DNA of 42,654 nucleotides from an uncultured bacterium (GTDB lineage: Bacteria > Cyanobacteriota > Vampirovibrionia > Gastranaerophilales > Gastranaerophilaceae), in assembly GCA_947073645.1 (NCBI GenBank), contig CAMTMK010000016.1, positions 1 to 42,654 on the forward strand. The letters run 5' to 3'. The translations under genes were made by a program, and so were the position numbers. Below the pieces are notes generated by a model. That model saw nothing but the letters and a program-made list of their open reading frames with translations, was not told the DNA's origin and ran no database searches. Shown piece by piece: positions 22,778 through 37,834 of this stretch; position 1 is the first letter of the stretch, and the number at the start of each line of letters is the position of its first letter.

Positions 22778-23587
22778 TTAGAATTTTAAAGGATAATCTT
22801 TAGGTATTTTCCAACCATTTGCTTGAATAAGTGCTGTACAATAAGCTCGTTCATTTTTGTTGTTTATGTTACAGCCATATTCTGTATCAGTAATTAATTT
22901 ATTCAAATCACCGTTCCAACTCCATTTATATGGTTCAAAGCCTTTGTCGTAATGATATTCAGATGCCCACTGCCATGCATTGTCAATGCCAATGGCAGAT
23001 GGTGTGAATGCAAAAGTAAACCATTTTATGCCGCTGTCTTTTACTTCTTTTGTACCTTTGAAATCTTTTGCATTGGGATAAAATTGTATTCCCTGTCCTA
23101 TGAGTCGCATACAGCTTCCATCAGGAAAATATACAATTGTAGCAGTTTTTTTAATGTCTGATGTTACTTTTAATGTTTTAATGTAAGGAGACAAATATTT
23201 GTTAAACCATATTATAGACTTTGCACTTTTTTCTCCGTTAATTGTTGTTGAGCCTGCATTAGGTATTGGCTCCCATGATTCTTTCGCACCGTTTATGTTT
23301 TCAGATATAATTACTGCCTGATTTATTGAGGAATAAAATTTAGCAAGTCTTGTTTCAATAACTTGTTTTTTATAATTTGCTACCAGATTAGGAATAGTTA
23401 TTGCACAAATAACACCAATAATACCTAAAGTAATTAAGACCTCAGCTAACGTGAAACCAACTTCGCCTCGCGTTATACGGCACCGCTCGCAAGCAAACCG
23501 AAAAGCGCGGTTTTCGCTTATGTTTGTTCGTCTCTTACTTCGTTCGTGCCTATGTTCGGGGGGGGGGGCGATTCTAAGAGTTGTCAT
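22778..23587 (-). CDS. prepilin-like protein A (poly-C tract in frame, ON)
   Basis: 269 residues from the ATG at 23587, chosen because a GGAGG SD lies upstream and the promoter TTGACA-17-AATAAT starts RNA near 23606 (an upstream ATG at 23611 is before that point). After MTTLRIA comes a run of 11 C (APPP), then an Arg-rich leader of about 35 residues, then the type IV prepilin signature GFTLAEVLITLGIIG with the helix continuing VICAITIPNLV. Prepilin peptidase would cut after the Gly and methylate the Phe. The globular part has paired cysteines (EYGCNINN, RAYCTALIQ) typical of minor pilin/pseudopilin-like proteins in this group. The leader is unusually long and much richer in G+C than the rest. 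Changing the tract by one base would abolish the protein. Confidence 0.88.
   Translation of the reverse strand: MTTLRIAPPPEHRHERSKRRTNISENRAFRFACERCRITRGEVGFTLAEVLITLGIIGVICAITIPNLVANYKKQVIETRLAKFYSSINQAVIISENINGAKESWEPIPNAGSTTINGEKSAKSIIWFNKYLSPYIKTLKVTSDIKKTATIVYFPDGSCMRLIGQGIQFYPNAKDFKGTKEVKDSGIKWFTFAFTPSAIGIDNAWQWASEYHYDKGFEPYKWSWNGDLNKLITDTEYGCNINNKNERAYCTALIQANGWKIPKDYPLKF
23558..23568. repeat. G11 homopolymer (C11 in the coding strand) in prepilin A
   Basis: Eleven G on the plus strand, preceded by TTC and followed by C. It lies seven codons after the ATG of prepilin A, in frame with GFTLAEV at this length. Confidence 0.97.
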
Positions 23588-28169: not shown

Positions 28170-28951
28170 ATGAAAAGATTTACTCAACTTTTCGGGGGGG
28201 GGGCACTCTAGGCAAACATAGCGGTTTGACCCGTCACATTAGGTCTTGGAAGAATTTTAGCAGTGGTTTTACATTGGCTGAGGTACTAATTACTTTAGGA
28301 ATTATCGGAGTCGTTGCGGCTTTAACTATTCCTAGTATTGTTAATAATGGAAACGAAAGAAAAAATATTGTTAAATTAAAAAAAGTTTATTCTCAGCTTT
28401 CTACGGTTTTTGAGCAGGCAGTTGATGAAAAAGGGGTTATTAAGGATTATCTGGCGCCTTATCCGGGGATGTATGATACAGATTCGCATAAAGCGTTTAG
28501 GGATTATTTTACATCTTATTTTAATGCCATTCGTATTGGGGAATACACTGCAAATTGGAGTGACGGGATAAAAAGTGATGGCAATAGTTTTTCGACATTT
28601 GTCGGAAGTGACGGAACTGCGTATGTTTTCAGGCTTCTACCCAATAATTGTGAAAGTTCTTTTGGGAGTTATTCTGATAAAATTCCTGTATGCGGGGAGA
28701 TATTTGTTGATTTATATTCAGGACAAAGTGAAAGTTGGAGTAGTAACGCCAAGAATAGGGTTGTCGGGAAAAATGTTTTTATGTTCCATGTGACAAAAGA
28801 TAAAATAATTCCTGCAGGAATCCCTGCTGATGATACTTTAGAATGTTACACAAATAAATATGCCTGTACTCAATGGGTATTATTAAACGAAAATATGGAT
28901 TATCTTCATTGCAGTGATTTGAGTTGGAATGGTAAACGGAAATGTAAATAA
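28170..28951 (+). CDS. prepilin-like protein B, frame broken at a G10 tract (OFF state)
   Basis: The only start with an SD (AAAGGAG) downstream of the promoter is the ATG at 28170: MKRFTQLF followed by ten G. With ten G this frame ends at TAG after GGGAL, 14 codons in all including the stop. Adding one G joins it to the open frame LGKHSGLTRHIRSWKNFSSG, then GFTLAEVLITLGIIG with VVAALTIPSIV and a globular domain of about 200 residues to the stop at 28951. That domain ends with Cys-rich EYCTNKYACTQWVLLNENMDY-like sequence (CYTNKYACTQW), CSDLSWNGKRKC, close to prepilin C. The rest of the frame is intact with no other lesion, so it is a switched-off rather than a decayed gene. An assembly error in the tract is the alternative. 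Confidence 0.85.
28194..28203. repeat. G10 homopolymer in prepilin B
   Basis: Ten G, preceded by TTC and followed by C on the plus strand, as in the other two tracts. Here the coding strand is the G strand (Gly codons), while in A and C it is the C strand (Pro codons). Confidence 0.97.
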
Positions 28952-36084: not shown

Positions 36085-37056
36085 ATGAACATATTGGCAA
36101 TAAATTTTGGCGGAATAGGCGATGAAATATTTTTTCTCCCCGCACTTATATCATTAAAAAAGGAATATCCTGAATCAAAAATTACTCTCGCGCTTGAACC
36201 AAGAAGCAAGAGTGTCAAAGATTTGACAAGTATAATTGATGATTTATTTTTGATTGATGTTAAAGGCAAAAATAAATATGCAGAACTTTTAAAACTTGTT
36301 TGGCTTGCGCGTAAAGGCAAGTTTGATATGGTAATTTCATCAGGCGGAAATAAGCTTATAAGTGTACTTTTGTTTATGATGGGAATTAAAAAACGCTATG
36401 GTTATTACACAGGAAGTTTAAGCGAAAAACTATTGACAAAAACTGTTCCGTTGAATAAAAAACAGTATGCTTGTGCGATGTATCACGATTTGGTTACGCC
36501 GATAACAAATCATAAAACTTATCTCCCTGAAATTGATGTTGAACCTCAAGAAAAAATCACTAATTCGGTTTTAATCCACCCTGGTGTGAGTAAAATGAGT
36601 GTTCAAAAAGGGATGATAAAGACGGTTTCTGCCGAAATTTGGGCTGAAACTATTGATTTACTTGTCAAAAAAGGTAAGCATGTAATCCTTGCTGGCGGTC
36701 CTGATGATGCGGAAGTTATTGAGACAATCCGCAATAATACCAAAGGTTTTGAGGATTTTTACGGCAAAACAAAAAGCTTGAAAGATTTAGCTGTTTTAAT
36801 CGGAAAAGCCGAACAATTTATCTGTTCTGATTCTGCACCTTTGCATGCGGGTGTGGCAATGAAAACTAAAACATATGTAATATTTGGACCTACTGATGAT
36901 AAAAAATTAATCCCGCAATCAGATTTGGTTACACCAATTAAAGCAGATGATAAATGTCCCATAAAACCTTGTTTATGGGAATATCGTCAAACAACTTGCG
37001 GAAATTTGGATTGTTTAAGGATTACTGCAGAAGATATTGTAAAATATATAAATTAA
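36085..37056 (+). CDS. glycosyltransferase family 9 (heptosyltransferase-like)
   Basis: 323 residues. GT9/GT-B fold like the LPS heptosyltransferases WaaC/WaaF. The N-terminus MNILAINFGGIGDEIFFLPAL is the usual GxGD start; VLIHPGVSKMSVQKG, VILAGGPDD and ICSDSAPLHAGVAMKTKTYVIFGPTD form the C-terminal nucleotide-sugar site. The ATG at 36085 was chosen over 36049 because the motif begins there and the TATAAT box lies between the two. The acceptor is unknown; the KdsC-like gene at 14924 fits a Kdo-containing surface glycan. Its stop overlaps prepilin C by four bases. Confidence 0.9.
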   Translation: MNILAINFGGIGDEIFFLPALISLKKEYPESKITLALEPRSKSVKDLTSIIDDLFLIDVKGKNKYAELLKLVWLARKGKFDMVISSGGNKLISVLLFMMGIKKRYGYYTGSLSEKLLTKTVPLNKKQYACAMYHDLVTPITNHKTYLPEIDVEPQEKITNSVLIHPGVSKMSVQKGMIKTVSAEIWAETIDLLVKKGKHVILAGGPDDAEVIETIRNNTKGFEDFYGKTKSLKDLAVLIGKAEQFICSDSAPLHAGVAMKTKTYVIFGPTDDKKLIPQSDLVTPIKADDKCPIKPCLWEYRQTTCGNLDCLRITAEDIVKYIN

Positions 37057-37779
37057 TTACATTTTTTCTTTCCGCTCCAAGATAAATCATTACATTTGGT
37101 ATATTCCATATTTTCATTAAATATTGCCCAGGCAGTACAGTTATTTCCAAGGGTTGAACAGGTTGTCATATCAGCATTTTTACCGGATGGCGCTAATACG
37201 CTGTGTTCAAATCTGAATACAAATATGTTTTTCCCGAAAATTTGTTTTTTTTGATTATCAGTTTTTACGAATATATCTGCACAGGAAAAATAATCATCGT
37301 TTCTTGAACATCCTGTATCATAATAAGTTCCTGCAGAAAATGAAACCATTGTACCATCGTTAAGTATAAAAGTTTTTTGATTGCCGTTATGTATATGATT
37401 TATACTTTTGCTGCCGTTTAAATAATAAAAATAATCATTAACATCCCAACATGCAAATCTGTTATCATAGTTGCATTCTTTTGTTATGTTTAGATATGGT
37501 TTTAATCTGTTCCAAAAATCGCCTGTTCTATCAGAACTTGTATTTACATCATCCCAGGTATCAGGTGTTCCGTATTTGTTAATTGTTAACATATAAGCAT
37601 TAGAAAAAGTACTATAAACTTTTTTTAATTTTGTTATAGTTTGTTTTTCCTTATGATTTGCAACAAGAGACGGAAGGGTTAATGACGCTACAACACCAAT
37701 AATTCCTAAAGTAATAAGGACTTCCGCTAGAGTAAAACCTTCGGGGGGGGGGGCTCATAGCTTTTTTGTTATTCAACAT
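37053..37779 (-). CDS. prepilin-like protein C, frame broken at a C11 tract (OFF state)
   Basis: Reverse strand: a GGAGG SD, ATG at 37779, MLNNKKAMS, then 11 C. With 11 C the frame runs on through about 30 residues to a TAA. With 10 C (or 13) it reads PPPEGFTLAEV directly into LITLGIIGVVASLTLPSLV and on without a stop to 37053. The in-frame part downstream of the tract includes the sequence starting MLTINKYGTPDTW, which is not a separate gene. The C-terminus (CSTLGNNCTAWAIFNENMEY, CNDLSWSGKKKC) resembles prepilin B closely, so the two are paralogues. Promoter TTGACA-17-GATAAT. No other lesion is present, so the gene looks switched off rather than dead. Confidence 0.85.
37743..37753. repeat. 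G11 homopolymer (C11 in the coding strand) in prepilin C
   Basis: Eleven G on the plus strand, preceded by TTC and followed by C. It sits directly before the prepilin cleavage motif: the codon after the Pro run is Glu, then the Gly of the GFTLAEV site. Confidence 0.97.
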
Positions 37780-37805
37780 TTAATCTATACCTCCAAATTA
37801 TTTTA

Positions 37806-37834
37806 ATTATCTATGCTTGAATGTTTTTTGTCAA
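37806..37834 (-). promoter_or_regulatory. promoter of prepilin C
   Basis: Reverse strand TTGACA (37834-37829), 17-bp spacer, GATAAT (37811-37806). RNA would start near 37799, just before the SD. Confidence 0.78.

Follow-up and report, generated by a model that had tools for sequence, protein, structure and literature searches.

Runs of C or G ahead of prepilin signatures suggest a large, mostly silent set of individually switched pilin genes in a gut-dwelling Gastranaerophilales genome

Long runs of C or G in the genome of a gut-dwelling, non-photosynthetic relative of the cyanobacteria lie for the most part just ahead of prepilin signatures, where the length of each run sets the reading frame of the pilin behind it. 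We consider it likely that these genes make up a large repertoire of prepilins, most of them silent, whose members would be switched individually by slipped-strand mispairing, in the manner of contingency loci. The genome (1.71 Mb in 37 contigs) comes from a family of Candidatus Gastranaerophilales, and the focal gene lies at 37053-37834 on the minus strand of contig C16, within the 42,654-nucleotide stretch of DNA that was analysed as a whole and is called the window below (Table 1).

The focal gene has the complete order of elements that recurs elsewhere in the genome. Its leader consists of nine codons, the last of which is completed by the first C of the tract, and behind the eleven Cs the minus strand reads GAA GGT TTT ACT CTA GCG GAA, the codons of EGFTLAEVLITLGIIGVVASLTLPSL, with a predicted cleavage between G (37739-37737) and F. 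The frame of the ATG, MLNNKKAMSPPPRRFYSSGS..., ends after 42 codons, failing behind the tract, whereas the prepilin frame, EGFTLAEVLITLGIIGVVA..., opens directly behind C11 and continues for 229 codons with no stop. A preliminary description of this DNA had proposed that the frame starting from the Shine-Dalgarno sequence and ATG at 37779 is broken at C11, that a run of ten would restore it, and that the tract sits beside the peptidase cleavage site, and each of these statements is borne out: the ATG frame meets the prepilin frame at run lengths of 1 modulo 3, and a single GAA codon separates the tract from the G of the cleavage site. Its warning that automatic annotation would start the protein at the internal MLTINKYGT, and thus lose the pilin signature, was also well founded, in that no ATG, GTG or TTG precedes this codon (37592) in the prepilin frame and the resulting headless ORF is 179 aa long.

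Table 1. Features of the three tract-bearing prepilin genes in the window.
Feature	Position	Strand	Basis
Promoter-like element of focal prepilin, TTGACA-17-GATAAT	37806..37834	-	11/12 consensus; consensus match only
Shine-Dalgarno GGAGG of focal prepilin	37790..37794	-	sequence
ATG (37779-37777) of focal prepilin and leader codons MLNNKKAM(S) before the tract	37754..37779	-	sequence, frames
C11 tract, proposed switch; codes Pro-Pro-Pro; +1 out of prepilin frame as assembled	37743..37753	-	sequence, frames
Focal prepilin body EGFTLAEVLITLGIIGVVASLTLPSL..., 229 codons	37056..37742	-	stop at 37053-37055
Second tract-bearing prepilin, L066, frame ON	22781..23587	-	frame survey
C11 tract of L066, 99 nt before the signature	23558..23568	-	run search
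ATG and leader of third tract-bearing prepilin, L067	28170..28193	+	frame survey
G10 tract of L067, frame OFF (+2)	28194..28203	+	run search
L067 body from signature SSGFTLAEVLITLGIIGVVAALTIPSIV..., 230 codons	28259..28948	+	PF07963, frame survey

By its motif and its N-terminal profile, the focal body is a predicted type IV prepilin. It contains GFTLAEVLITLGIIGVVASL, with a G/A-F-T-L-x-E motif followed by a hydrophobic segment, as in a class III signal peptide. The match to TIGR02532 scores 20.1 bits, above the cut-off of 16.3; PF07963 gives 17.7 bits on the body alone, below the cut-off of 21.2, and 21.4 bits with its in-frame neighbours. The N-terminus matches PDB pilins in a profile comparison (best E 6e-5). 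The predicted structure (pLDDT 87) consists of a 53-residue helix (residues 5-57) followed by the strands of a C-terminal beta domain. A Foldseek search of this model against PDB returned no match at E 0.001, VIA-align gave type IV pilins Z values of 2.7-4.3 in a list whose unrelated rows reached 4.6, and the C-terminal domain matched no Pfam family. Machinery for pili is present in the same genome: one prepilin peptidase (PF01478 over cut-off; the same protein has no NCBIfam match), a secretin, and four PF00437 ATPases over cut-off, one of which is over the cut-off of the PilT family and another of which finds its best match in PilB, below the PilB cut-off. For a termite member of the Gastranaerophilales, one published paper names pilA, pilB, pilC, pilT and pilD (PMC5877343).

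The association of tracts with prepilins was measured over the whole genome. A search for runs of ten C produced 68 overlapping matches, which merge into 54 runs of C or G of at least ten, against 0.08 expected from base composition. Prepilin signatures number 75 (PF07963, E 1 or better), and 41 of the 54 runs are found no more than 139 nt upstream of such a signature; a further run, at L090, precedes a pilin with a slightly different motif that was found by eye. The total of 42 of 54, where 0.36 would be expected (p about 1e-80), rules out chance co-location. When runs of at least eight within 175 nt are counted, 52 of the 75 signatures have one and the other 23 have none that long. The set is a divergent one, with a median identity of 41% between each of the 75 pilins and its best paralogue. 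Twelve further runs of at least ten (L084-L089 and L091-L096) lie in or near non-pilin genes, some of whose ORFs resemble, in names given by eye, a glycosyltransferase or a hexapeptide acetyltransferase, types of gene that are usual for contingency loci. Two long, tract-free proteins with YTLAEVIIVMLII signatures, L037 and L073 (C7:1241 and C23:4611; open frames of 518 and 424 aa), are a different pilin-like type.

The units share one order: Shine-Dalgarno sequence, ATG, a leader of roughly 6-20 codons, the run of C or G, a linker and the prepilin signature. Eight C-type units resemble the focal gene in having no linker beyond GAA, so that a single codon stands between the end of the run and the G or A of the cleavage site. 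G-type linkers, for example CACTCTAGGCTTTACT or CACTCATAGCTTAACTCCT, hold stops in the OFF frames, so that an OFF peptide would be over within a few codons. A dispersed repeat roughly 35 nt long (AAGCGTAGCCGCTTGACCCGCCACATTGGGTTTTG, allowing up to 8 mismatches) is part of some of the longer linkers. Several units have it between their tract and their prepilin motif, and there are copies outside the units as well; it was found at L015, L020, L022, L023, L035, L049 and L067 (28214-28248 of the window), and also at L025 and L061. Possibly it is a linker that is mobile or recombines.

Tract length sets the frame throughout. Among the 52 tract prepilins with runs of at least eight, 10 are ON and 42 OFF as assembled (the window holds one ON and two OFF), and the run lengths are 8 (2 genes), 9 (9), 10 (30), 11 (10) and 12 (1); 31 of the OFF genes need one base more and 11 need one base less. 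The prepilin frame is nonetheless intact in 40 of the 42 OFF genes, the exceptions being the truncated L020 and L062. Where both copies of a pair are OFF, dN/dS is 0.10 (L168/L170) and 0.11 (L160/L161), and it is 0.13 between L040 and L189, orthologues in two species that are both OFF at G10. The OFF genes are thus not decaying; they are kept under purifying selection. An alternative start with a Shine-Dalgarno sequence in the pilin frame was found in just 2 of 233 OFF units.

Under the reading we favour, the focal locus would be one of roughly fifty prepilin genes, each with its own Shine-Dalgarno sequence and ATG and often a promoter-like region, and a run of 8-12 C or G would put the leader in or out of frame with the mature pilin. 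Mispairing of slipped strands during replication would add or remove one base and toggle the gene between ON, which would yield a full prepilin, and OFF, which would yield a short peptide stopping just behind the tract. With most loci OFF, few of the many divergent pilins would be exported to the type IV pilus machinery at once. Slippage at useful rates, an effect of the ON or OFF state on expression, surface display, and a benefit through immune, phage or adhesion variation would all belong to this mechanism.

The arrangement recurs across the order. A run of at least nine G placed 3-33 nt before the motif occurs in 61 of 286 genomes of the order, and a C run 0-30 nt before it in 35 of 286, with reversed-pattern controls of 0 in both scans. 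Among 386 genomes drawn from the phylum the G pattern occurs in 48, all of them in the window's family (f1); the order-level G scan also found one genome of another family (G031). In the named collection, the matches listed comprise at least 80 loci with at least 30 accession prefixes, and the titles among them are Gastranaerophilales, Melainabacteria, Scatousia, Cyanobacteria, Fusobacterium sp. CAG:439 and uncultured bacterium.

Tract length varies among paralogues and among lineages, and is nearly fixed at an OFF value within some lineages. In genome G150, L157 (C11) and both L158 and L161 (C12) have identical sequence over 75 nt upstream and a near-identical linker and motif, and L156 (C13) is 89.8% identical to L157 (C11) over 659 nt. 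L195 (G11, ON, in G016) and L199 (G10, OFF, in G007) have a common linker. In G004, which like G001 belongs to the window's genus, and G059, 37 of 40 runs are exactly 10 and all 38 assessable units are OFF; all five of their orthologous pairs at 89-97% identity have n = 10 on both sides, and two more distant pairs (80-83%) are C9 vs C10. Nine other genomes have 5 ON in 92 units, far below one third. In this multi-genome survey the window's own genome counts 9 ON of 51, with the contig-end unit L025 left out (10 of 52 with it), and L156 is scored OFF through an upstream start; when its frame is read by hand from the ATG of its paralogues it is ON at C13.

The excess of OFF genes has to be read with care. 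The 10 ON genes of the window's genome compare with a permutation mean of 15.7 (p 0.023), and in the named assemblies, among the matches listed, 12 of 82 units are ON, against 33.3, but against 12.0 when the shuffling is done within assemblies (13 of 95 units, which had no clear Shine-Dalgarno start, were dropped, and two of the assemblies are G004 and G059 again). Since the within-assembly value is the same as that seen, the excess in the named assemblies is a difference between a few lineages and not independent evidence, and we rejected selection for OFF beyond base rates. The excess and the narrow range of lengths fit a silent default, the majority consensus of mixed populations, or a fixed tract with another use. 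The nearly all-OFF consensus that is observed would be expected if any given pilin were ON in only a small fraction of the cells. We put forward only tentatively, as a possibility we would sooner doubt than assert, the more specific proposal of a default-OFF repertoire, in which the usual run length of each lineage (9, 10, or 11-12) would be OFF and one base from ON, and each cell would show a single pilin, or a few, out of dozens of divergent ones.

A link to loss of mismatch repair was considered and rejected: MutL is over cut-off in 245 of the 286 genomes, many tract-bearing ones included. G150 has no MutL match near the cut-off, and its runs of 11-13 are longer than those of MutL-bearing relatives of the window's genus; a link between the two is suggestive only. 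MutL matches are absent or very weak in genera g30, g31 and g35 as well as in G150. Several contigs end on or near tracts, at L164, L166, L169 and L171 in G150 and in contigs of G233, G077 and G065, and the assemblies of these four genomes therefore probably lose or misplace some prepilin genes.

The chief rival to switching, and a live one, is that the tract is a fixed slippery site at which RNA polymerase slippage or ribosomal frameshifting yields a minority of full-length prepilin from a gene that looks OFF, so that many minor pilins would be expressed at graded low levels with no switching in the DNA. The OFF excess and the narrow lengths speak for it (none of 38 ON in G004 and G059, 5 of 92 in the nine other relatives), as do the orthologues with a common n of 10 and the fact that a single base, to be gained or to be lost, always separates an OFF run from ON. 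Yet ON alleles exist (10 of 52 in the window's genome), near-identical paralogues differ in length, and the direction of repair is mixed, not only as 31 and 11 in the own genome but also as 45 and 25 in the named assemblies, among the matches listed; the single fixed offset and direction of a programmed frameshift are thus not what is found. That both directions occur disfavours ribosomal frameshifting and affects transcriptional slippage less, so it is the latter, at a fixed tract, that survives in weakened form, and we regard a fixed slippery site overall as unlikely. A still smaller chance attaches to errors in homopolymer length: the assemblies are drafts and in G150 several contigs stop at a tract (L164, L166, L169, L171), but dozens of independent assemblies have tracts at the same position while the pattern control is 0, and the sole thing that assembly error could affect is the exact length of single tracts. 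We think it very improbable that such errors account for the pattern.

Hardly more probable is the idea that the OFF copies are pseudogenes, either decaying or serving as silent recombination donors in the way of Neisseria pilS. It could draw on the 42 of 52 genes that are out of frame and on the truncated L020 and L062; however, it was rejected on the intact bodies of 40 of the 42 and on a dN/dS of about 0.1 in pairs with both members OFF, and the start and Shine-Dalgarno sequence, often with promoter-like sequence, are retained, unlike in the pilS genes, which are truncated silent cassettes. The preliminary description had likewise preferred a tract-dependent OFF prepilin to a pseudogene, and this is supported as the best reading of the focal gene at C11. 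That description had covered one case among about fifty; the focal locus alone would stay uncertain, and the interpretation is carried by the pattern over the whole genome.

The nearest orthologue of the focal gene, L098 in G012, is 68% identical and lies behind the same upstream SDR gene; the search for related loci found no named orthologue. The preliminary description had turned to orthologues for further lesions and for tracts of C10 or C13. As to the former, the body of L098 is intact, with dN/dS 0.18 against the focal prepilin; as to the latter, its C run is interrupted, and ATA aligns with the ATG start codon of the paralogues. L098 has thus not kept the switch, nor is it plainly a standard ON allele, and as evidence for the focal locus it is neutral to slightly adverse. 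L032 in the window's own genome and L098 have interrupted runs (CCCCTCCCC and CCCTACCCC) with the prepilin frame open, and look like switches frozen by point mutation.

The closest known systems are those of Neisseria, Campylobacter and Helicobacter. In Neisseria pilC the run sits in the signal-peptide region; most opa members can be OFF, and Opa is an outer-membrane beta-barrel; and the tracts of Campylobacter and Helicobacter occur in genes of several kinds, for glycans, capsule, restriction and the outer membrane. One source describes an in-frame homopolymer of about 9-20 that switches the type IV pilus component of Neisseria pilC1/pilC2, the multigene opa family with CTTCT repeats, and homopolymers in some pilS alleles as well (PMC5953494), and another gives 29 coding regions with homopolymeric tracts for H. 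canadensis (PMC2823697). As in pilC1/pilC2, a G or C run in the reading frame would here switch a type IV pilus component; PilC, however, is a retraction/adhesion factor in one or two copies, whereas here it is the prepilins themselves, about fifty of them, with the run beside the prepilin peptidase site. The opa family resembles the present set in its many paralogous surface proteins, each with an independent repeat switch, and differs in its pentamer repeat, its outer-membrane beta-barrel and its about a dozen loci. The poly-G loci of Campylobacter and Helicobacter also belong to small A/T-rich genomes with tens of G/C runs, but here 42 of the 54 runs of at least ten serve one protein family. 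Neisseria pilE/pilS likewise has a large repertoire of pilin variants per genome; there one expression locus is rewritten by recombination, while in the present set every gene comes with a start and a switch of its own. A literature search that left most subscription papers and all bioRxiv preprints outside found nothing in print on phase variation or a prepilin switch repertoire in Gastranaerophilales. The kind of mechanism is known, and one switch per gene over about fifty prepilins of a gut lineage appears to be new in the literature searched.

Annotation is likely to reduce tract prepilins to short headless ORFs. In gene catalogues the pilins of these bacteria, most of which are uncultured, are therefore probably counted too low and can even seem to be missing. 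It is mainly in pathogens such as Neisseria, Haemophilus, Campylobacter and Helicobacter that contingency loci have been described. A default-OFF repertoire, if true, would amount to a counterpart of antigenic variation made up entirely of independent switches in single genes, here in non-photosynthetic gut Cyanobacteriota, and a commensal gut lineage with most of its long C/G runs in one prepilin family would indicate strong diversifying pressure on pili.
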